Assembly (NCBI GenBank): GCA_026874595.1
Contig: CM049309.1
Location: forward strand, 73,454,426 to 73,518,425
Length of the DNA: 64,000 bases
Reading direction: 5' to 3'
Source of the DNA: Sipunculus nudus
Lineage: Eukaryota > Annelida > Sipuncula > Golfingiida > Sipunculidae
A program made the translations under genes and the position numbers. Within the stretch, counting starts at the first letter, position 1, and every line of letters starts with the position of its first letter. Positions 39,801 to 54,549 of the stretch are shown here, one piece after another. Under the pieces are notes generated by a model that did no database searches, was not told where the DNA came from, and saw only the letters and a list, made by a program, of their open reading frames with translations.

Positions 39801-42800
39801 TAGTCCCAAATTTTTGTGGTATATTAACTTCATCTGGGTACAGTGGTTAATTTTAAGGTAAGTGATACAAGCCCCCAGTTGATTATTGTTATTGGCAGGA
39901 TATGAAATATTTAGCAATTATAGTGTGACAGGTTGACCATATTTTGCTGTGACAAGGGAGGGAAAAGGAGCAGATATAAATATTACACAAGGAATTATTT
40001 GAAGCTGTAATTCCAGCACTCCATAAACACTGCAAGAACTGTTATGTAGAAGTACAATACCACATAAGATTAAGGGGAAGGGATTAGCAGTTTAGTTATA
40101 CATTGTAAAAATGAATACAATTAATATGCAATGCTTGCCAAAATTGCACATTTTCCATGCCATATCCAAAATGGTGCAGGATGAATGCTGTTAAAATACA
40201 GGCTATGTTCAGTCATTAATGACATATCTGAGTTCAAGCCTGTTGTAGGTTGATCTTCAGAAGATATTTTGTATTCTCATGATCTGTAGAACAACTTGCA
40301 GTGTTATATCATACAGGGCCTTTTTAATGTGGGCACCTTGTATGTTAGGGAGGCTGTACTCAGGGTCTTAGATCTGTTTCGTACTGGGTGCCCAGTGAAA
40401 TTATTGTCATGACTTTCCACTAAAAGTTCATATTTTGCCATATTTAGGAATAGACTGCATTGGGATCAATAGCCACACAATGAAATTAAAAAGTCACATA
40501 GTGAGACCAAAAAGCTTGGATTTGTCAATATTTTATTGATTTATTTCGTTGGTTATTCTTTACTTAATCAGCATCCAACCTGTGTGTGGCCTGCCACTTA
40601 TTTTGCCTATGATTAGTTTAACACAGTTGCTAAAGACTACAGTTGGTGGAAAATTTATTTTCCTGAGATTTAAATTAATGGTGTCACTTATTCTTTTTCT
40701 GTGCATTTAATTTGGTTAGCTCCTTACTCATTTATTTCAACTGGTGGGGGAAGGGGGGGGGGGGGGTATTTAATTGATAAACATCACCATAGTTCAGTGG
40801 GCCCCCAGTGCTGGAACAAACCCCAATACATTTTAAACTGAGAGAAGCATGGATTAACCTGAATATTAACTACTATGGTTTACAAAATGTGGTAGCAGTG
40901 ATGTGATGTGACCAGTGTAGGTGGTTGTGATGACAATATTTAGTGGAGTTTGGTAATGACTAAACCTTGTACGGCTCAGCGAGTTTGGTGGCCTCTATGT
41001 TTCCCCTTTTCTGTTGACTGTTTCTTGTCCCAATGTCTCATACATATATCATACACTCATATTTGCTCTGCCTTATGCAATGAATAATATCGGGCTAACA
41101 GTATCACAAACTTGTTGATAACAATTTAACAAAAATCCTAACTTTTTGGCAAATAACTTTAAGCTAAAATTAGTTGATTGAATAAACCCAATACATAGCA
41201 ACAGTTTTCATAAATACTTGAAATGACTTTATATATTTGTCACTGAGATGTTTAATAAAAGTATGTTTTTCTGGCTATTACATTTACAAATTTACTACAG
41301 CACTAAATTATGTTGGACTGTATATTGTTTTTGAAATATTTCATCATATTAATGTTTAGCAGTAGTTTGCAAACGTGATGGGACATTTACCACTGTAAAG
41401 AAATACATGCATTTTGGTTTATTTGATTCGAGCATTCAGTTTACACACTATAATGATATCAGAATATTGAAGTATGGTATATAACCATTTTGAGGTGAAC
41501 TAGCATAGGTAGATTTGCTAGTTAGATCAGTATGTAACTTTATAATGTTAAATTTGATAGATTTGCCTTTGACTTTTCCAAAGTTCTCATTGATCATACA
41601 TAGTTTGAAGGATTTGAACTGTAAAGATGTTAATACCTGATTTTACATTATAACTTACCATCTGTATGTAAATAAAGGCTCCCAACGCGAGCCCAGCCAA
41701 GACAAGTGGACTTCTTCTTCTCTGCCTCTCTCTGGTAGGTCTTCGCTCTTTTCTTTCACGTTTCTGGGGTTGAAATCCATGCTGCTTATAACAAAAACAA
41801 AAAAAATTTAATTCCCACCTTACATCAATATCATCTAAATCCTATATCACTATGAATCACAAAGATGAAAGCAGGTTATGGTTAAATCCAAATAACATGA
41901 GTGACATGTGTTTTGATTTAATCCTTTTTATTAGAAAAAAATTGCTTCTGTTCCCTTGTATTATTATAAAATGAAATTAATAGTTAAAAATTTAATTAGT
42001 AGTCAGCAGAATGTTTTAATATAGAAGTTCATTTGTTTGATCAATTAGCATTTTACCTGTGATTTGGTAATTAATTTACCTGTTATCTTCCTCATCAGGA
42101 GTATCACCTGGCATACCTGTGCATGGTTAACACCTGATGCTTGTACATGGAACCCACTGTTTATGTTGTTACATGTCCCCAATACAAGCAAGATCCCTGT
42201 CTGAATTTTGCAGCATATGTATATTTCAACCCCTGTCTTTTTGCTAACATCTTGTTTCCCTTCTCACGCTTGCTTTAACCTCTGCCACCTAGTTACAAGC
42301 TGAGCATTGACCATGATTTTATGTTTTTGCACTTGAGCAATGATCCACAATTACTAGTGTTTAGTGTGTTAAGGTTTCACAGGCTTGTTATGGGCTGTGC
42401 TGGTCTGACCATAATTCATTCCATCACCTGTGTCCACCTGGTTTTTTGTTTATCTTTAGCATCATGTAAATTGGAGCATTCATTTCCGCACAGGACTAAC
42501 AGTAGGTGAACCAATTTTCTCAGAGGAACAAAAAAAAGCTTTTATGGGTTTCCTATGAACAATTTTTATCATAATTTTAGAATATGTATTTTTGAGAGGT
42601 TCAGCAAGGGTAAACAACCTATCTGTTCCTGCTTACCTACAGCAGGGCAGGTTTTCATTGTTCATGCTGTATGCCATAATTAGCTGGAACGCGTTAAATA
42701 ATTTGATTCTTGATGTTTTAATCGAGAAACAGCTCACTTCAGTCTGTAATTTGTTGCTCTGGGCTAATCAGCATTTCCACAGAGATATACCAAAGGTTAA

Positions 42801-45800: not shown

Positions 45801-48800
45801 TGTTTTATGTGTATTTTTGAACAGTTTTGATTGATTACTTGGCAGTGAGTTTAACATTGTAAACAGTTTGTGGTGATTCTAACTTACTGGTCATAGTGTT
45901 GTGCCCAGGTAATGTGATTCATTACATGTAATTAATGAGCAAATTAATCTCGTTACAGCCAGCCTTCCTGTAGGTGCCTTACAACAAGGTGAGTTAGGTG
46001 TGTGTAACCCCGTGACACCTGCATACACAGACACCTCAACACAAAGCAAATCTTTTTTTTATATCAGATCCAGTCAGAGCCATCAGTAATTTTGTCAGAG
46101 CCACCAATAATTCTGTCAGTCTTCTTGCATCGATTGACGTACTGCCTGCTGAAGAGCAGGGTATTAGGTATAAAAGGGCTAATATCCACTCCACCAATTA
46201 TGTTGAAAGTCTGTATTCACTTTGGTTTACCTGACATTTGATCTGATGCTGACATTTGGTATTCTTTTACATTAAAGACAGGAAAATCAATTGGCCACCC
46301 TCTACGGTGGCTGCATTGTACTAGAGGCATTGACATTGTCTCATTTACTCTCATTTATGTCTATTTGCTGCTCTAAGTTGAAATATTTCAACTATTTTGC
46401 AGTGTCTGGGCTTGTTTTTCCTATACAAAGTGACCCCTGTTGCCAGGAAGTAACGTATGCATACCTCCTATTATACATAACTGATTATATATTTGTATGA
46501 TAGGTATTTTTAGTACAGATTTAATCTACCGTGAATCTGTCAAAACAGGTGTAACAGTACTACTGGCATTATTGTTAAAGTGGTGTCTTGCAACCACAAA
46601 ATGGGCAGTATTAATGTTCTACTTCATGGAATAGCGGTATAGTGGAAACATAGCATGTTTAAGCATTTGTTTTCATACAAGCTGGATTTATTGTTTATAA
46701 ATTTAAAAATAAAATGACGGTTTTTGTGTTGTGGTGTTGTTGATAAAGTGTAAATCCCTCAAAGATAACCTGAAATAAAAAGTATACTTTTGAATTAAGC
46801 TGGTATTAGACTCTGATTGACACAATTAAGCCTGCACTCTCTGTGGTGGTGTTGTGTTTATGTTTTGTTTCCTCTGTTATGGCGAATCACTTCAGTTGGT
46901 GTTTACATGTGGGCACATGTGCATAAAGAATTATTTCTGTACAATGACCATTCAAAGCACATGAAAATAAATACTTTATAAAAGCTGAAAGACATATCCT
47001 GAGAATACATATACTCATGCTAATAAGTGACAGCATAAACATTTGTTAAAGCTGAATGTCTGTTATTCTCAATTAGAAATAGTCAGTCTTTGTCATGCAA
47101 GATAACATTAATTGACAGGAGTCCACTTTAAATGGGAACTTGTCCCAATTTAAAGCATGTTTATTAATTTTAATAATGCTCTATTTGAACAGATTTTTGC
47201 CAAGACTTACAATTATCTTGAGTTCTGATTGGTTATAAAATTTGGGTGCAGTAAGGGCTATGTTGTTTATGAACCAAATTAAATGCTTTGACACAGGCTA
47301 TGCACCATATAGGCAAAAATCTGCACAAATCCAGCACTTGTATTTAAATTTGACCTCATTTATCATTGTTGCATAATTACTATACATGCTTTGGTGATGT
47401 GGCGGGAACTTTGTTCAGTGTTTGGTGTTGCTTTCTTTTTAGAACCACAACATCATTTGCCCCTTGCAGCAGCGGCCGCAGCCATGCCATTCAGCCTGGC
47501 AGGCCTGCCCACAGCTCCAGCAGTTGGAGCCGCAGGCCTGCGCTTCCCAGGGGCCACCAACACAGGCACTGTACTCTTAGTCTCGAACTTGAATGAAGAG
47601 GTCAGTACACACATCAGTTCTTTTACTTTATATTATTCTTTTATTATTCTCTATAATGTTGCACTAATATTTTTAAATACCAATTCACTCCATCAGTTTC
47701 ATTCAGCAGGGGTCATACCTGATTACTCCTGTTATTTCAAATGTTAAATTTGGCTCTTCCCTTATAACATGTAAACTTTTAATCTTTTCCTGTTTATAGC
47801 TTTACAGTCAGTTATAACTAATAGTTATTTGCCTGTGTCTTGTCTTATAAAACCTGTACGGATGCAGGCCGTTTTATCTCTGTGCCTGCATGTTATTCTG
47901 AAATGAAGACTTAAACAGGTACAAATTATATATAAATATATATATAGATCATTGATGAAGAGAGAGTAAACAGTAGTTAGGTTGTCCTGCTTGTAGAGTA
48001 CATATACACCATGATACTTTTCCGTTGGTGATTATATATGACACAGTATGATGGCAGAGTGCACCAAATGACACTTCTCCATGCACCAGGGACAGCTATT
48101 AGCGCAAGCATGGATGCTGGGAACCATTTTTGTTTCATTTTGGGGCATGCTTTTTGCTTGGTTTCTTTAATAACATTTGAAGCTGTTGCCTTTCATTGTA
48201 AAATTTCATTTGTGTAGTTCATTTTCCATTGTAAACATAAGGGCTTTGTTTAACCGACCAAATGCATGTGTTGTGTCGCTGCATGTTAACATTAATGTCT
48301 TGGCAATCTTTGTATTACCGCTGCCGTCAGTATTAGAATATTTATGGAAAATCTGTCGTTGTCACACTAATCAACGTCTATATTGTAGGGGCTAATCATT
48401 ACCATCACGTTAATAAATGTCAGCGTCTTTTGTACATTTGTACATCTGTAGCGGAAAAAGCCAACCTGAGCCTTGATTTGTAATCGGTAATTTTCACTGT
48501 TGATTCACACGTTGATTTTATCCCTGTTTTTTCTTGTTTCCCCCATTCATCACTGCGCTGGTGTACCGTGTGGATCTTTGCTCGGAAACTTCGCTCTTCC
48601 GCTCTGCTCTACCTGTTGCTCTCAACTATAGAAGGTTACGCCCGACGCTCTTTTTACCCTTTTTGGTACGTTCAAGCACTATTTATTTCATTTTCTTATT
48701 TCTAGTTAATAGTTGGTTAGAGCATTAAAAAACACCATAGTATTTATGTGTACTATCCACACACACACACACTATACACACGCAGGTCTCTCTACACAAC

Positions 48801-51800
48801 ATTGAACTAATGTAGCAATGTGTACTGTATATATGACTGATGCGTTGATTTGGTATGTCTGATACATATGTGATGTGGTGAAACCTGACTGTTGACATCT
48901 CAGAACTGTCTCATGAGTGTGTAAGCATTATTTTAGTTTTTTCTTTATATTTACAGACTAATGCTCTGGGAATCCTTGATGGGGATATTTTTTATGAAAG
49001 CTGAGAATATGAACTTCATTATAATTTATTTATATCAAGAATATGTTTTATATAATTTTAAAACATTTGTCTGTAATTTCATGTATAACTAAGTACGGTT
49101 TACTCTTACAAAATACAGAACACCTAAACATCTTGCTTAATTCAGTGAAACCCCTCAGTCATTTTTCTGATTATGTGTTTTGTTTCAAAAATGTGATTTT
49201 ATTCAGTATAAAAGTTTGAATTGTACTTGAATAAAGTTCTTTTTTAAAATTTTTGACAAGTAAAGTCTGAACAAGGAAAAACCTGGGGGGGGGGGGGGGG
49301 GGAGGAAGGGCGGGGGGACTTTTTAGAGTGTATGTTTACAATTCCAAATATTTAAAATGGAATATTTTGCTTTCTTAATGGGGAGGAATATTAATTCAAA
49401 TTAAACTCTCAAAACTGCTTTTTTAAATCTTTAACCATTAGTTTTGGGAAAGCAAATTTTTCATATAGCACCATGTGGAAAACATTCTTAGCTCTCAGAA
49501 TATGTACATCATGTTGTCACAGAGTATCAGAGCAAGAAATATTAAAGAAAAACCAAAACATTGTTTATACACACTTCTTGGGCAGTACTGAAACCTGCAG
49601 ATGGGTCGCTCTCCTTAGCATGAAGAAACGCTGTGTAGATTCTCATTCTCACACCTGCGGGTGCTTAGTTAATATAAGTGATGACACAGTCTGTGTAGTG
49701 AATGGCGTCCGTGTCTATGATGCCTATTTGTTGCTGCATGTCCTTCTAATTATATACTTTGTACATAGTGCATAGATATTTTGTTACCAGTCCTATGATC
49801 TCAGTATATCAGCCTGGTTATGTTTATGTACCTACATACAACATACGTTTCTACAGCTTCGTACCTTAAATCTTACAAACAAATAATGGATACATTTAGT
49901 CATGTTGTGGTAGCTGTCACACTTTGCTTGTCTGTCTGATGGCATCTGGCAGTGTCAATGATCTCTCTACCTCAGGAGGTCGGGTTTCCTGCAGGTGTGT
50001 TGTGGTCACACTTGTGCAGGACATGTAGGTTTTTGTTTGTTTTACAGGCGTGTATGGGGATGTGTACAGAGTCAAGATTATGTTCAACAAGAAAGATAAT
50101 GCCTTGGTACAGTTTGCCGACCCTACCCAGGCTCAGATAGGTCAGTATACCGAGTTAAGCTTGGATTCAGTAAGTCTTGTAATAGATATTGTAAATATTG
50201 TGCACTTATAAAACAAGCATTGCTGGGATATGACAGCCTTAGATTGAGTATAAGAGGCTTTGAAAAACCTTCAACTTGAAAACAAATTTGGTTATTTACA
50301 AACATAGGGTTTATTATTGTCAGTATTATTATCTCAGTTGCATGACAGGGCCATCTGGTGGTCGAATTTAAAATTAATAAAAAATCAGTCTTTCAGTGAT
50401 ATAAGTGTTACTAGTACAGTAAATAATGGTTAGTACAGTTCTTACCATCAGTAATATAACTCATCTGTCCTTTTGTTAAGATGCATAAATAATTATGAGG
50501 AGCTCGAGTGTATAAATCATTGTAATATGTAAAAGGAATGTGTAAATAACCTATTCTGCAGTTGTAAAAGTACAACACTCCAGTGAACAGAAGTTCCGGC
50601 TGCAGCACACTGAGGTATTCATTAGTAATAACTCACAGCTGAAGACCAGTTTAACATTGTATGATTTTAACTTGGACTTATCTAAAGTTGTTGTTATTTA
50701 ATATTACAGCCCTGACTCACCTTGATAAAGTCAAGTTGTGGGGTAAGCAGTTGAAGGTGAACCCATCAAAACATTCGGTGGTTCAGATGCCAAAGGAAGG
50801 ACAGCCTGTGAGTCATGTTTTATATGTAGATCAGTTCATAAATCAAAAGAAAAAAAGACCACCTGTAAAATTGGGATGCTTTAATAATCAGAATAAAACT
50901 ATTTAAGTTACCTGGCATTTCTTCAGGAATCAACAAAGCAGATATTTCTAATCTTAAAGCACATTATAAATTTGTTTGAAAGTTGCACAATAACAGATAA
51001 ATATTTTGTCTTAATTTGATAAATATTATGTTCTGCTATATGTGACAGTATATTTCAGTATAAATGTAATTTTACAACCCAAAGTATTGCATTTAGAAAA
51101 ATAGTGTGTTCTTTTTATTGTTCACAATTAAGTTGCATATTGGAGCCATTTGGCTTTTGCCATTCATTTTTTGGACACTGCTTTTAAGATCATAAACATG
51201 AATTTCATGCTTGGCTGATGCTGTTGTAGCCTCTGGTGGTATAACTTTCCATCTACCCATGCAATATGTATCTGTTTATATTTTAATATTATTTCATTCT
51301 TTTCCAGGATGCTGGTTTGACCAAAGATTACACAACCTCCCCTCTGCACAGGTTCAAGAAGCCCAATTCAAAGAATCACCACAATATATTCCCCCCTTCA
51401 GCGACCCTGCATTTGTCCAACATTCCGTGAGTATATCATTTTACTTGTTTGACACACAGAAATCTTGATTTATACTGCACTTCTAGAATGTGGAAGAACA
51501 CATGTGCAAGAACCCCCCCCCCCCCAAAAAAAAAAGAGAGAAGAAAAAAAAACTGGGTCTTATAAAATTAAACCCATGTGCAATCTACCTTTGATATGAT
51601 TAATTCACTTATTTTACTGTGAATCTCATGAAACTGTGTAAGTTGGATGGATTCCTTAATTTACATTATTTGTGCTAACAGTTTTATGACACAATTTTCT
51701 TTTTCACAGAATGTCAGCTTTGTTGTTGATGAATAGGAAAGTACATATGATTTAAAATTCAGTGCAGCAATGTACAGAGGTTTGTGTTCAAATGAACTTA

Positions 51801-54302
51801 AGCCAGAAGTTAGGTCTCTTTCTGCATTAGAAGTAATTAAATTTTATGTAGTTTCAGCTCATGTCTCTTCATTCTGAGAAGATATTGTATTTCGTGGAAG
51901 TACACAATGACTGGTTCTCATTTACCAAGAAGTATATGTGATACTGCATACAAGTACAATCCTAAATTCATTATTTTCTTACAGACCCAATGTTACAGAA
52001 GAACAGCTAAAGGAAGCATTCGCTGAACATGGAACTGTAGTGGCCTTCAAATTTTTCCAGTAAGTACTGTATTGCATCACTCAATGTCAGCCGAAATAAA
52101 AAAAAAATGACTTGGGATGTGCCTCATCATTAGAAGAACAACAAATCATGCTTACACTCAGGGAATTAATTGATGCTACATGTGCTGCAGTTATAATTAA
52201 TAATGGCAGAATGAAGCACTACAGCAGAAAGCATAGGATATATAACTGAGGTTTAATATTTCTTTTTTTTTTCTTGTACTGTTATGAAAGAACATAATCT
52301 CCAGGCATTACAAAAGAGAAGATTTCCTTGATTGCTTTCCTGTTGTTATAAAGTGACCTCCTTATATGTATACATGTAAGGAAATAAGGGTTCATACAGT
52401 AGACATAGATGATCTGCATATGTTTATACATTAACTGTAATCATGGAAAATTTCTATGGATAGTGTTTTTGTCCCCCACTTCCGGGGAATGGGGGACATT
52501 TGTTTTGGTTTGTCTGTCTGTGTGTCCTTCTGTCCATCAGGTTTTCGTTTCTGTGCCTTAACTTTCCTAAATATTATCCGATTTCATTCAGATTTGGGCC
52601 AGTGATTGCTCTCATGCATACCTTGGCAGGGATTTGTTTTGGAGTGTCTGCCTGAAAATTTATGATCAGCAGCTCAAAAAAACAAAACAAAAAATTCCCC
52701 TTCAGTTCCCAACCAAAAATTATGACATGTGGCAACATCTTCAGGGGGCAATGAAAACTAAAACACAGCCACTTTAAAGCAGGGGACAACGAGGCGGAAG
52801 TGGGAGATATAAATTCCATGAATTTGCATTTTATAGGTTAAATCATGGACTTTCATTACAGTGTTTATTTCATTCATGTTTCTTCCTCTAGAAAAGACAG
52901 GAAAATGGCCCTGATTCAGATGGAAACAGTGGAGGAAGCGGTACAGGCTTTGATTGTAAGTATGAGTGTCTGGGTGTCAAAGGTCATTTATATAGTAATT
53001 CTATTATTTACCCTAAAGCCTTGCATCCATTATAATTTATAGTTTATTGTAAGTGAATGCAGTTAAGCATGTAACCTGTAAGTGCCTGAAGTTTTGTTTG
53101 TCATGATTCTGTAAAATTATGATCTCTTATTTAAGTGTTAATGGCTACTTGATAATTTAAAATTGTAATCTGTGCATTTATTATTGAGATCCTTTATTTC
53201 AAAGCTATTTAGTCATGTATAAACACACAATTTATATGTTTATAATTTAAAAGGAAGATAGCTAAAAGTGTAAAGATGAATATTGAAATTTTCATCAGAA
53301 TGTCATTTACCTGCATAGTGAACAAAATTCTTACTCCACTGAAACCCTTTTAGTGACTGTTTATGTATATTAAATTGTAGTAAAAACAGTAATGTTAAAA
53401 CTTGATAATTGAGTAAAATTGATAACATTGACGTTTTATATAGATGTTTTTTTACTGATATAAACTGTGATCTTGGTGCCTTACTGCCGTGTACCCTGAT
53501 CTGTCTGTTTTTACGAGCTCTGCTATACTCTATGTAGATCACCCACTCAGGGTTTGTAGTCACCCTTTGATTTCCCTATGGTTTTGTTTTCATTATTTCA
53601 AGTCTACCTACACCAAACTCAATGTGTTTTTAGTCCTTTCTTTATTACTGCTGTTGCCGCAGGGACCATTGCTTCGCTGGGATGGACTAGGTGTTTTTAC
53701 AATTTTGAGGAAGATCACGTGCATTTTGCACTTGGTGACCTCCCTCAGCAGCTTGCAACCCTATTAAATATTACCAAGGGCAGCTTCTTCAGAAAATCCA
53801 TAATTAATATGTGAAAATATTTTTTATTAAAATATTTCACATATGGTCAGTTTTCTTTACATAATGTTTGCTTGGAGTTAAAAATTGGAAACGAATAGTA
53901 TAATATATTTGGATATTGGCTTAATGGTAACAATGATAAAAAAAAAAATTCTTAGATTTTTGGCAAAGAATTTTTTACAGCAATTCAGATAAATGTTTGG
54001 CAAAGGGATGAAATTTAATATAAATAAATGAAAAAAAAATAATCTTCTAAAAAGGCAAAAGGGTTAAAATTGCAAACTAAATTGTGGAGAAAACACGAAA
54101 AATTGGGAAAGGAATGATACTTTGAAATAAAGAAGTTTGGGTAATTTTTCCAATACTTCTTGAAGCTGTCCTTGACTGTTTCATATTTTCCACTATGCTG
54201 TCCTTGCAACCTTTTAGTCTCCTTCGTTTCCAGGCTCTGCACAACTTCGAACTGGGCGAGTCTCACCACCTCCGAGTTTCATTCACCAAATCTACCATCT
54301 AA
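18833..54302 (+). CDS. PTBP1: Polypyrimidine tract-binding protein, four-RRM splicing regulator (whole spliced gene)
   Basis: The spliced coding sequence predicts an hnRNP I/PTB protein that binds CU-rich RNA, mainly in the nucleus, and represses or modulates exon inclusion. It may also affect RNA stability and translation. Exons join in consistent phase: 18833-18877, 21220-21315, 29996-30145, 33931-34071, 37038-37169, 37748-37799, 38359-38417, 39485-39659, 43648-43743, 45959-45988, 47443-47600, 48632-48665, 50048-50140, 50710-50807, 51308-51426, 51985-52059, 52892-52955 and 54234-54302, giving about 561 residues (human PTBP1 has 531-557). RRM1 lies at about residues 60-136, RRM2 168-250, RRM3 367-445 and RRM4 484-561. 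The RGSDEL motif near the N-terminus, the RRM2 tail with [17 protein letters not shown], and the RRM3-RRM4 linker with GLTKDY and SPLHRFKKP are hallmarks of the family. Invertebrates usually carry one ortholog of the three vertebrate paralogs, so the symbol denotes the family. Alternative pieces: cassette 41678-41734, alternative donor at 43767, alternative terminal exon 54430-54549. Confidence 0.95.
18878..21219 (+). other. PTB intron 1
   Basis: This is 2342 nt between the initiator exon and the RGSDEL exon. I see no coding exon or recognisable repeat family. The 3' end has a clear polypyrimidine tract before CAG. Confidence 0.6.
21220..21315 (+). CDS. PTBP1: PTB coding exon 2 (RGSDEL N-terminal region)
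   Basis: This 32-codon exon is phase 0 at both ends, between a CU-rich acceptor and AAG|gtaata. It starts [16 protein letters not shown] and ends SNDAKK. In vertebrate PTBP1 this segment carries part of the bipartite nuclear localisation signal; here the lysines at the exon end and the following KASR in exon 3 could serve the same role. It precedes RRM1 and is predicted to be disordered. Confidence 0.93.
21409..21503 (+). repeat. Interrupted TG-rich repeat near the exon 2 donor
   Basis: Runs of TGTGTG, some interrupted by TTTT or A, begin about 94 nt downstream of the exon 2 donor and follow a CU-rich stretch. In RNA this is a UG-rich tract, the sort bound by CELF or TDP-43-type proteins. 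Functional relevance is inference; it may be a plain microsatellite. Confidence 0.7.
22913..23387. mobile_element. Small MITE-like element related to the 5138-6773 element
   Basis: The left end CAGGGCTTGACATTAA is the same motif as the left end of the 5138-6773 element. The right end reads TTAATGTGGAGCCTTG, its imperfect inverted copy. The unit is about 475 bp, too short to encode a transposase, with internal repeats of a GGCAAG motif. The target-site duplication is not clean; both flanks contain TAAA. It sits in PTB intron 2 and is probably a degraded non-autonomous copy of the same superfamily. Confidence 0.55.
25565..25582 (+). repeat. Poly(C) tract, 18 nt
   Basis: Uninterrupted run of C in PTB intron 2, followed shortly by a CT-rich stretch. 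Exact length may be affected by sequencing or assembly. Confidence 0.85.
27964..27987 (+). repeat. Poly(G) tract, 24 nt
   Basis: Uninterrupted run of G in PTB intron 2, able in principle to form a G-quadruplex in DNA or nascent RNA. It is one of several long G or C runs in the window. Confidence 0.85.
29996..30145 (+). CDS. PTBP1: PTB coding exon 3 (start of RRM1)
   Basis: This 50-codon exon is phase 0 at both ends, between TTTGTAG and CAG|gtacgt. It encodes the linker ending GKASR and then the first half of RRM1: RNP2-like VLHFRGV, then [20 protein letters not shown] and LAKKKNQ. The vertebrate equivalent is VIHIRKLP, DVTEGEVISLGLPFGKVTNLL and LKGKNQ, so the identification is secure. Confidence 0.96.
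30146..33930 (+). other. PTB intron 3
   Basis: This is 3785 nt between the two RRM1 exons. It contains a short tandem repeat of about 28 bp at 30721-30804. I find no coding exon; open frames such as 31135-31494 have no recognisable product and no flanking splice logic. Confidence 0.6.
30721..30804 (+). repeat. Short tandem repeat, about 28-bp unit, 3 copies
   Basis: CTGGTAG recurs at 30721, 30749 and 30777 and is followed by similar text containing CTCTGTGGTAA in the first two units. It is an imperfect intronic minisatellite. Confidence 0.6.
33931..34071 (+). CDS. PTBP1: PTB coding exon 4 (end of RRM1)
   Basis: This 47-codon exon is phase 0 at both ends, between TTTGCAG and CAG|gtaaca. It begins [19 protein letters not shown] and continues with [18 protein letters not shown]. 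The latter is the last beta strand of RRM1 and matches the vertebrate segment IRG/LRG..YIQFSNHKELKT. It completes RRM1, with the exon boundary after the KNQ of RNP1 as in vertebrates. Confidence 0.96.
34072..37037 (+). other. PTB intron 4
   Basis: This is 2966 nt between RRM1 and RRM2 exons. It holds the 43-bp minisatellite at 34452-34918. I see nothing else definite in it. Confidence 0.6.
34452..34918 (+). repeat. Minisatellite, about 43-bp unit, roughly 11 copies
   Basis: Head-to-tail copies contain TACACAACAGGTGCCACAAT, then CTGGCTGACCATACCTG, then TTCAGG or TACAGG. Central copies are nearly identical; the first three and the last are more diverged, and one central copy lacks a base. There are no unique spacers, so this is not a CRISPR. 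Each unit contains CAGGTAC, a donor-like string, and an AC-CTGTTCAG acceptor-like string. It lies about 380 nt past the exon 4 donor, inside the intron. Confidence 0.93.
37038..37169 (+). CDS. PTBP1: PTB coding exon 5 (linker and start of RRM2)
   Basis: This 44-codon exon is phase 0 at both ends, between TTTGCAG and CAG|gtaagt. It encodes a short inter-RRM linker with [12 protein letters not shown], then RRM2 beginning [20 protein letters not shown]. The vertebrate text is AQAALQAVNSV and VLRIIVENLFYPVTLDVLHQ. The linker is shorter than in human PTBP1, lacking the alanine-rich insertion before RRM2. It is followed by a 578-nt intron in which I see nothing. Confidence 0.95.
37748..37799 (+). 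CDS. PTBP1: PTB coding exon 6 (RRM2)
   Basis: This 52-nt exon enters in phase 0 and leaves in phase 1, between TTTCCAG and an A|gtaagt donor. It encodes [17 protein letters not shown], the segment matching vertebrate IFSKFGTVLKIITFTKN. The asparagine codon that follows is split across the next intron of 559 nt, which contains a 12-nt G run at 38261-38272. Confidence 0.95.
38261..38272 (+). repeat. Poly(G) tract, 12 nt
   Basis: Uninterrupted G run located 86 nt upstream of the 38359 exon; the span continues as GGAGGG. Possible G-rich intronic splicing element, or a simple homopolymer. Confidence 0.8.
38359..38417 (+). CDS. PTBP1: PTB coding exon 7 (RRM2 RNP1)
   Basis: This 59-nt exon enters in phase 1 and leaves in phase 0, between TTTACAG and GTG|gtgagt. 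It completes Asn and encodes [19 protein letters not shown], the RNP1 strand and following helix of RRM2; vertebrates have QFQALLQYADPVSAQHAKL. It is followed by a 1067-nt intron with an imperfect 109-bp tandem duplication near its 3' end. Confidence 0.95.
39275..39480 (+). repeat. Imperfect tandem duplication, about 109-bp unit
   Basis: The string GAACCAT.TGAGT.TCAC..TAAAAA occurs near 39284 and again near 39393, and GGTAAAGTGTGA follows both copies at similar spacing. The second copy ends next to the acceptor at 39484, so the duplication reaches the branch-point area of the following exon. Divergence suggests it is old. Confidence 0.55.
39485..39659 (+). CDS. PTBP1: PTB coding exon 8 (end of RRM2 and linker)
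   Basis: This 175-nt exon enters in phase 0 and leaves in phase 1, between TTTCAG and CAG|gtgagt. It encodes [20 protein letters not shown], then [20 protein letters not shown], the last strand and fifth-strand extension of RRM2 and among the most conserved parts of the family. The exon then enters the disordered linker ([18 protein letters not shown]). The next constitutive coding exon is nearly 4 kb away, with the putative cassette between them. Confidence 0.96.
40753..40766 (+). repeat. Poly(G) tract, 14 nt
   Basis: G run in the intron between exon 8 and the cassette at 41678, preceded by GGTGGGGGAA. It extends the G-rich stretch to about 26 nt. Confidence 0.8.
41678..41734 (+). CDS. PTBP1: Putative 57-nt cassette exon in the RRM2-RRM3 linker
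   Basis: Starting after AAAG and ending at CTG|gtaggt, this segment enters and leaves in phase 1, so inclusion adds exactly 19 codons (about [19 protein letters not shown]). The first half is CG-rich compared with the AT-rich intron around it, as expected of an exon. The acceptor has a poor pyrimidine tract, and a CU-rich tract covers the exon's 3' half and continues past its donor. Human PTBP1 has an alternative exon in the same linker that adds 19 or 26 residues. I infer regulated inclusion; without cDNA it stays provisional. Confidence 0.55.
43648..43743 (+). CDS. PTBP1: PTB coding exon 9 (RRM2-RRM3 linker, P/G/T-rich)
   Basis: This 96-nt exon is phase 1 at both ends, between CCCAAG and GAG|gtacgc. 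It encodes [19 protein letters not shown] and [13 protein letters not shown], a low-complexity linker comparable to the PYAGAGFPPTFAIPQ region of vertebrate PTBP1. It is GC-rich relative to its introns. A second donor 24 nt downstream (after 43767, gtaatg) keeps the frame and would add GTPLSPEY. The acceptor has a modest pyrimidine tract. It is followed by a 2.2-kb intron in which I see nothing definite. Confidence 0.82.
43744..43767 (+). CDS. PTBP1: Optional 24-nt extension of exon 9 through an alternative donor
   Basis: Reading continues open past the first donor (gtacgc) to a second candidate donor (ATG|gtaatg) exactly 24 nt later, also in phase 1. The added codons read GTPLSPEYG across the junction, fitting the surrounding linker composition. 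The upstream donor is closer to consensus, so the extension would be the minor form. Confidence 0.4.
45959..45988 (+). CDS. PTBP1: PTB coding exon 10 (30-nt microexon)
   Basis: The 30 nt lie between CGTTACAG and AAG|gtgagt and are phase 1 at both ends. With the flanking split codons they read [10 protein letters not shown], which resembles the GLSVPNVHGAL part of the vertebrate linker at the same position. Because it is frame-neutral, skipping would join exon 9 directly to exon 11 without a frame shift. The donor is strong; the acceptor pyrimidine tract is short. The following 1.45-kb intron contains nothing I recognise. Confidence 0.72.
47443..47600 (+). CDS. PTBP1: PTB coding exon 11 (linker and start of RRM3)
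   Basis: This 158-nt exon enters in phase 1 and leaves in phase 0, between CTTTTTAG and GAG|gtcagt. It encodes [20 protein letters not shown], with the polyalanine run typical of this linker, then [11 protein letters not shown] and the RRM3 RNP2 strand [11 protein letters not shown]. Human PTBP1 has AAAAAAAAG, GLAGAGN and [11 protein letters not shown] in the same places. Confidence 0.95.
47601..48631 (+). other. PTB intron preceding the 34-nt exon
   Basis: The intron is 1031 nt. Its last 160 nt contain no AG dinucleotide between 48471 and 48629, only the acceptor AG itself. Within that zone TTGATTTTA near 48515 is a plausible branch site followed at once by a long pyrimidine tract (about 48517-48550), and CTCTTCC and GCTCTGCTCT motifs lie between it and the acceptor. 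Confidence 0.8.
48632..48665 (+). CDS. PTBP1: PTB coding exon 12 (34-nt, frame-changing, equivalent to human PTBP1 exon 11)
   Basis: The 34 nt lie between ACTATAG and TTG|gtacgt, enter in phase 0 and leave in phase 1. They encode [12 protein letters not shown], matching RVTPQSLFILFG of RRM3. Human PTBP1 exon 11 and PTBP2 exon 10 are also 34 nt; their skipping is promoted by PTB and leads to nonsense-mediated decay. Here, skipping would put the next exon in a frame that ends at TAG at 50138-50140. This is probably a self-regulated exon. Confidence 0.95.
49285..49302 (+). repeat. Poly(G) tract, 18 nt
   Basis: G run in the 1.4-kb intron after the 34-nt exon, followed by GGAAGGGCGGGGGG, which makes a strong G-quadruplex candidate on the transcribed RNA. 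Confidence 0.85.
50048..50140 (+). CDS. PTBP1: PTB coding exon 13 (RRM3 RNP1)
   Basis: This 93-nt exon is phase 1 at both ends, between TTTTACAG and ATAG|gtcagt. It encodes [20 protein letters not shown] and [10 protein letters not shown], covering strands 2 and 3 and RNP1 of RRM3; vertebrates have [24 protein letters not shown]. In the frame used if the 34-nt exon is skipped, its last three bases are a TAG stop. It is followed by a 569-nt intron in which I see nothing. Confidence 0.96.
50710..50807 (+). CDS. PTBP1: PTB coding exon 14 (end of RRM3)
   Basis: This 98-nt exon enters in phase 1 and leaves in phase 0, between ATTACAG and CCT|gtgagt. It encodes [20 protein letters not shown] then [11 protein letters not shown], the last helix and strand of RRM3; vertebrates have MSHLNGHKLHGKPIRITLSK and [15 protein letters not shown] replaces RITLSKHQ, so the beta-4 strand is somewhat diverged. 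It is followed by a 500-nt intron in which I see nothing. Confidence 0.94.
51308..51426 (+). CDS. PTBP1: PTB coding exon 15 (RRM3-RRM4 linker and RNP2 of RRM4)
   Basis: This 119-nt exon enters in phase 0 and leaves in phase 2, between TTTCCAG and CC|gtgagt. It encodes [20 protein letters not shown] then [15 protein letters not shown]. The [15 protein letters not shown] linker packs RRM3 against RRM4 in known PTB structures and is almost unchanged here. It is followed by a 558-nt intron with a 13-nt C run adjoining an A run at 51513-51535. Confidence 0.96.
51513..51535 (+). repeat. Poly(C) then poly(A) tract
   Basis: 13 C followed by about 10 A in the intron after exon 15. A similar C-then-A junction occurs at 59439-59466. 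Confidence 0.8.
51985..52059 (+). CDS. PTBP1: PTB coding exon 16 (RRM4 helix 1 to strand 2)
   Basis: This 75-nt exon enters and leaves in phase 2, between CTTACAG and CA|gtaagt. It encodes [20 protein letters not shown] then KFF, comparable to vertebrate SVSEEDLKVLFSSNGGVVKGFKFF. The loop is one residue shorter than in human PTBP1 (EHGTVV for SNGGVV). The next intron is 832 nt and carries the 52466-52810 repeat. Confidence 0.95.
52466..52810. repeat. Possible MITE-like repeat with hairpin end
   Basis: At 52471-52497, GTCCCCCA and TGGGGGAC form a perfect 8-bp hairpin around a short loop. The text that follows is rich in TGTCTGTCTG. Near the far end, GGGGACAACGAGGCGGAAGT is an imperfect inverted counterpart of the CCCACTTCCG start. 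The whole lies inside one PTB intron. End positions are approximate and family membership is not established. Confidence 0.4.
52892..52955 (+). CDS. PTBP1: PTB coding exon 17 (RRM4 RNP1)
   Basis: This 64-nt exon enters in phase 2 and leaves in phase 0, between TTCCTCTAG and ATT|gtaagt. It completes Gln and encodes [20 protein letters not shown] plus I, the RNP1 strand and second helix of RRM4; vertebrates have [21 protein letters not shown]. Its donor must pair with one of two alternative terminal acceptors (54233 or 54429). The 1.3-kb intron after it shows no other clear exon. Confidence 0.96.
54234..54302 (+). CDS. PTBP1: PTB terminal exon, proximal form
   Basis: After CGTTTCCAG the exon reads [20 protein letters not shown], then TI and TAA. 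This is the usual family ending (vertebrate [22 protein letters not shown]) and completes the last strand of RRM4. The stop is followed by sequence that would be 3' untranslated and includes the second terminal exon. No convincing donor follows the stop, so the choice between the two forms is a choice of acceptor. Confidence 0.95.
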   Translation, partial: ALHNFELGESHHLRVSFTKSTI

Positions 54303-54429: not shown

Positions 54430-54549
54430 GAGATGCACAACTACCAGCTAGCAGAGACAGCACATCTACGAGTCTCCTTCTCAAAATCAACACTAGTACC
54501 TGGACATACTGTTTCTGTAGTAGCCATGCCAGCGGGCATAGTAGCCTAG
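54430..54549 (+). CDS. PTBP1: PTB terminal exon, distal alternative form
   Basis: After TTGTTCCAG the exon enters in phase 0, like the proximal one, and reads [20 protein letters not shown]. It then continues [19 protein letters not shown] to TAG. The first 22 residues match the proximal exon at about 13 positions and likewise complete RRM4, so the two are homologous copies. The distal form adds a 17-residue hydrophobic, valine-rich tail absent from the proximal form. Retention of the MHN, HLRVSF and KST elements argues against it being a decayed copy. Confidence 0.85.
   Translation, partial: [39 protein letters not shown]

Follow-up and report, generated by a model that had tools for sequence, protein, structure and literature searches.

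A PTB-family gene of Sipunculus nudus contains a 34-nt exon that is probably the invertebrate counterpart of the feedback switch formed by PTBP1 exon 11 and PTBP2 exon 10. The reading is based on the sequence of a 64,000-nucleotide stretch of contig CM049309.1, here called the window, and on comparisons made with it. If it is correct, a well-studied splicing feedback loop predates the vertebrate PTB paralogs, what has been conserved is the distant branch point, beyond the exon alone, and a precise prediction follows for invertebrate RNA-seq with nonsense-mediated decay (NMD) inhibited. The features of the region are listed in Table 1.

Table 1. Features of the 34-nt exon, its upstream intron and the predicted skip product; positions are those of the window, and negative numbers are distances from the exon.
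Feature	Position	Strand	Source
Upstream exon (linker and RRM3 start), donor GTCAGT	47443..47600	+	Gene model
AG exclusion zone (AGEZ), 159 nt; bounded by an AG at 48469-48470 and by the acceptor AG at 48630-48631	48471..48629	+	
Branch-site-like cluster; candidate As 48476, 48496, 48503, 48507, 48515 (-156, -136, -129, -125, -117)	48471..48516	+	Matrix scoring
Distal polypyrimidine tract, TTTTTTCTT at 48527 and TTTCCCCC at 48537, adjoining the -117 candidate	48527..48544	+	
GCTCT cluster; four CTCT (PTB-type) at 48594-48622 overlapping four YGCY (muscleblind-type) at 48592-48620	48592..48622	+	
34-nt frame-changing exon, part of RRM3	48632..48665	+	Sequence, gene model, protein alignment
Strong acceptor-like sequence TTTCATTTTCTTATTTCTAG, 21-40 nt 3' of the exon end	48686..48705	+	Acceptor score
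Downstream exon, carries the premature stop after skipping	50048..50140	+	Gene model
TAG in the skip frame, last codon of its exon	50138..50140	+	Join of 47600 to 50048

The PTB gene and its 34-nt exon

The gene lies on the forward strand and was modelled from 29996 to 54302 as 14 coding exons, which join into a single open reading frame, 1,419 nt long with its stop codon; coding exons upstream of 29996, and the start codon with them, are outside the model. The encoded protein scored 610.7 bits with the NCBIfam model TIGR01649 (hnRNP-L/PTB/hephaestus), whose cut-off is 287.4. The closest solved structures were RRM3-4 chains of PTB1 and PTB2 (E 2.6e-88 for PTB1), which we take to be human. These matches support the placement of the gene in the PTB family.

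When TIGR01649 was searched against the 1.43-Gb genome, 12 exon matches were returned, six in the PTB gene and six in a gene at C3:94.94-94.96 Mb that appears to be an hnRNP L-like relative. A second PTB gene was not found in this exon-by-exon profile search, which can miss genes. A single PTB gene alongside a single hnRNP L-like gene is in line with an invertebrate. The hnRNP L-like gene fits TIGR01649 as the PTB gene does; its stretch homologous to the 34-nt exon runs uninterrupted over both borders (locus L001), and the exon is therefore not common to the two genes. One PTB exon compared with bacterial and archaeal genome contigs and with viral contigs had no confirmed relative among them, as expected for an animal gene.

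An exon of exactly 34 nt within RRM3 had been described in the first-pass annotation, and both the coordinates and the protein alignment to PTB1 RRM3 bear this out. The exon codes for 11 residues and the first base of a glycine codon, and its peptide aligns with RVTPQSLFILFG of PTB1 RRM3. Its donor, GTACGT, is ordinary, with a score of 6.58 compared to 4.06-11.1 for 12 other donors. The acceptor, ..CAACTATAG at 48630-48631, scores 3.32. Of the gene's 14 other acceptors, 13 score higher, and so does, at 7.28, the acceptor-like sequence downstream of the exon. The latter could possibly be a decoy 3' splice site or a pyrimidine-tract site.

The AG exclusion zone

Ahead of the exon, the first-pass annotation reported 159 nt without AG; the coordinates confirm this stretch, and it is the longest of the 3,598 AG-to-AG gaps in the window (the runner-up measures 137). 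At the remaining 14 acceptors of the PTB gene, the AGEZ is 14-76 nt. At 23 acceptors of myosin genes in the same genome it is 11-56 nt; some of these acceptors may be wrong, since the matrix used to choose them was trained on the PTB gene and those of L004, L021 and L024 are over 50 nt 5' of the match. All 37 compared acceptors thus range from 11 to 76 nt. The myosin control kept 23 of 30 loci. Seven were left out: L015 lacked any candidate acceptor, and the acceptors of L012, L014, L026, L028, L030 and L032 scored below 3; the omission of these six gives our reading no help, as their gaps are 9-57 nt.

The window and the fetched loci, both strands counted, contain 2,157 acceptor-like AGs, of which 3 have a gap of at least 159 nt. 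Besides the 34-nt exon, these represent one place counted twice in overlapping loci, L014 and L023. Here, on the reverse strand, an AG-free zone of 177 nt precedes an acceptor-like AG in a myosin gene on C7, which may be another distant-branch-point site or a product of chance. Among human exons, 165 of 67,334 have an AGEZ of at least 150 nt (PMC1431707).

The exon could also be constitutive, its 34-nt length inherited via conserved intron positions and RRM3 coding sequence, and the AG-free zone a chance feature of a T/C-rich intron end. Mononucleotide shuffles of the zone speak for such a chance origin to some extent: 1,975 of 200,000 (about 1%) were AG-free, and the rarity of the zone is therefore largely due to its T/C-rich base composition. 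Against it, the longest gap in the window is found at the very acceptor that vertebrate precedent predicts, and it is AG in particular that is excluded. Among the other dinucleotides, GG is absent for the longest stretch ahead of the acceptor, 44 nt, and GA occurs five times inside the zone. We regard a constitutive exon as unlikely.

A genome search with 48440-48700, in which simple repeats and very common words were skipped, returned one match, the query itself. A repeat origin of the zone was rejected as unsupported, given this single match; nearby, only one 18-nt pair with 78% identity was present. RNA structure was not indicated in 48471-48665 (z = +0.53), and Rfam yielded nothing at gathering score over 28000-58000.

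Branch-site candidates

Branch sites were scored with a general matrix, on which the five distal candidates between -117 and -156 reach 3.45-4.43. The first-pass annotation had placed a branch-like element and a pyrimidine tract about 116 nt upstream of the acceptor; the candidate A of TTGATTTTA at 48515 is indeed at -117 from the exon, and TTTTTTCTT and TTTCCCCC follow it. Windows of 45 nt with at least five sites scoring at least 3.4 numbered 49 of 63,949, the cluster's own windows included. Weaker candidates are found at -83 (2.34) and -80 (2.11). We disregarded a further one at -7 (3.28) because of its immediate proximity to the AG.

The region in which a conventional branch point would be sought is poor. 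The best score at -15 to -45 is 0.08, below every one of the 37 controls (1.18-5.74), which argues against a constitutive exon, although 271 of 5,000 shuffles that kept the composition (about 5%) also lacked a better proximal site. No good candidate is present at -15 to -75, and no AG intervenes between the distal cluster and the acceptor. The region thus shows the features by which Gooding 2006 recognized distant branch points: an AGEZ of at least 150 nt, a distal site with its pyrimidine tract, the lack of a good proximal site, and a zone that is not a repeat (on the single genome match, with simple repeats and common words skipped). The 34-nt exon likely has a distant branch point, and its skipping is likely regulated. 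No other acceptor of the PTB gene has this arrangement, and vertebrate PTB genes carry it at the corresponding exon.

Candidate binding motifs

CTCTTCC at 48594 and GCTCTGCTCT at 48601-48610 are both present between the -117 candidate and the acceptor, as noticed at first pass, and a fifth CTCT lies inside the 34-nt exon. Four CTCT in 30 nt are unique in the window, both strands considered, outside simple CT repeats; the same density was found at two places in 232,070 bases of both strands of the other fetched loci. YCTY occurs in the zone 5 times per 160 nt, whereas shuffles average 8.0, and 2,397 of 20,808 intron windows reach at least the density of the zone. We did not retain YCTY density as evidence for PTB control, as it is not exceptional.

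The zone also contains six YGCY, four of them within 48592-48620. An exon with a distant branch point might thus be regulated mainly by another factor, for example a muscleblind-type protein acting on this YGCY cluster, and the PTB level would then be set through cross-regulation instead of autoregulation. The YGCY cluster is, however, less unusual than the CTCT cluster, since the two strands of the window hold four YGCY in 29 nt at 7 places, 48592-48620 among them, and its letters double as CUCU sites. We consider control mainly by such a factor quite improbable, more so than a constitutive exon. Because the same GCTCT units contain YGCY, the motifs themselves cannot separate PTB from muscleblind control.

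Predicted consequences of skipping

Joining position 47600 to 50048 leaves 30 open codons past the junction, followed by TAG. The first-pass annotation had this frame end before several further junctions, and the join reproduced it: five junctions come after the TAG, namely the one that closes the exon containing it and four more at 98, 217, 292 and 356 nt downstream. Under the general rule, the mRNA should undergo decay, because the TAG is upstream of later junctions.

This logic is weak when taken alone, since 8 of the 12 internal exons change the frame, which is also what a constitutive exon in this gene could readily do. Frame change with a premature stop was rejected as evidence in its own right: seven of 12 single skips in the PTB gene are alike in giving an early stop with at least two later junctions. 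The skip of 52892-52955 has no stop within the modelled exons, an artefact, and was not counted as an early stop.

Skipping might instead yield a stable short protein, made up of RRM1-2 and a broken RRM3, that is not a decay substrate. The 30 open codons and the position of the stop, as the last codon of exon 50048-50140, would suit such a product. The last four junctions, however, place the stop in the usual context for decay, and the skip products of PTB and nPTB decay in human cells (PMC1940037). A stable short protein therefore appears very improbable.

Other features of the gene and genome

Two exons at the 3' end of the gene, 54234-54302 and 54430-54548, have acceptors 196 nt apart, and each codes for an RRM4 end and a stop. 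The version with 54430-54548 ends in ..EMHNYQLAETAHLRVSFSKSTLVPGHTVSVVAMPAGIVA before its stop, and a CU-rich tract, CTTCTTCCCACCTTCTCTCTCTCC, lies between both terminal exons. This looks like a duplicated terminal exon that gives two C-termini, and it is possibly PTB-responsive itself.

A candidate 57-nt cassette exon at 41678-41734, with donor GTAGGT, is located in the intron of the RRM2-RRM3 linker. It is in phase and open when inspected by eye, and it adjoins the 160-nt intron window of the gene that is richest in YCTY (10 at 41713). The exon may not be real, as its acceptor scores -0.33.

On C2 (G000:C2:44849337-44852248), four tandem matches fall on roughly one and the same segment of the myosin head (model positions 109-153), which suggests alternative exons in a muscle myosin gene. 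A single muscle-myosin exon had its highest score, 194.1 bits, with a chain taken to be squid myosin, and nearly the same score, 193.0, with a Myosin-6 chain. Searches for molluscan haemocyanin (PF14830) and MHC class I (PF00129) gave no hits, nor did their controls, and so carry no information.

A possible feedback switch

In the switch that we propose, splicing of the 34-nt exon would use a branch point some 117-156 nt upstream, whose remoteness, together with the weakness of the acceptor, would make inclusion easy to block. Abundant PTB would bind the CU-rich stretch that separates the branch point from the acceptor, with probable further binding around the exon, and the exon would then be skipped. 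Skipping would shift the frame and bring in the stop at 50138-50140 upstream of junctions, as read from the sequence, and by the general rule the mRNA would be directed to nonsense-mediated decay. The outcome would be negative feedback on the PTB level.

The same feedback loop with a similar cis architecture had been put forward in the first-pass annotation. Much of it stands: the gene belongs with the PTB family and is the single PTB gene found, the AGEZ is large, a distal branch-site cluster is combined with the lack of a good site at -15 to -45, and the skip product fits the decay rule. The parts that do not carry it are the frame change, which is not specific, and the YCTY content, which is only moderately high. 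On balance, autoregulation of the 34-nt exon by PTB is more probable than not.

No report of a PTB exon 11-type switch in invertebrates was found in the open-access literature among the matches listed. Excerpts of PMC1431707, PMC1940037, PMC4379411, PMC2689934, PMC13247117, PMC2265522, PMC4094481, PMC8797185, PMC3856098, PMC10342978, PMC3040740 and PMC4176163 contained nothing on such a switch in these animals.

The findings suggest that the switch is older than the vertebrates. The chances that it shares common descent with the vertebrate switch are about even, because a single genome is considered and convergence is possible. Tentatively, and with slightly less than even confidence, we picture an ancestral bilaterian with a single PTB gene that limited itself via a 34-nt exon, a distant branch point and an AGEZ before the split into PTBP1, PTBP2 and PTBP3; the arrangement would have been kept here, the zone having been shortened or having never grown.

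Comparison with known systems

Autoregulation through PTB exon 11 was reportedly defined by Wollerton in 2004. Distant-branch-point exons in general share an AG-free zone between the distal branch site and the acceptor, and alternative splicing is commoner among them (both PMC1431707). Intron 4 of MBNL1 likewise has an AG-free zone, and according to a review, MBNL1 acts within such a zone of its own gene (PMC4176163). These are not PTB genes.

Within the PTB family, the regulated vertebrate exons are 34 nt long (PMC1940037). The switch need not be universal, given two cases. For ROD1 exon 10, the vertebrate paralogue of the exon, the branch point is conventional and ESTs give no sign of skipping (PMC1940037); the exon can therefore exist without the switch, which is also a point in favor of a constitutive exon here. 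A survey of C. elegans lists an otherwise unspecified alternative event of ptb-1 as one that creates no premature stop, with a value of 0.06 in a smg-1 mutant (PMC2265522).

Exon 2 of ROD1 is also 34 nt long, and its AGEZ of 168 nt is the closest in size to the zone described here; however, it is a different exon of its gene (PMC1940037). PTBP2 (nPTB) exon 10 has 34 nt and an AGEZ of 438 nt, and sits in an ultraconserved element, unlike the exon described here (PMC1940037). Inclusion of nPTB exon 10 and ROD1 exon 2 goes up upon knock-down of PTB or PTB/nPTB (PMC1940037).

The zone in S. nudus is much shorter than those of vertebrate PTB and nPTB; for human PTBP1 exon 11, the AGEZ measures 381 nt. 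The branch-site candidates are correspondingly closer than the verified human branch site at -351, mutation of which abolished inclusion in a reporter (PMC1431707), and one PTB gene was found here compared to three in human. The two exons agree in being 34-nt frame-changing exons of PTB genes with a large AGEZ, distal branch-site candidates with an adjacent pyrimidine tract, and a premature stop on skipping (PMC1940037, PMC1431707).
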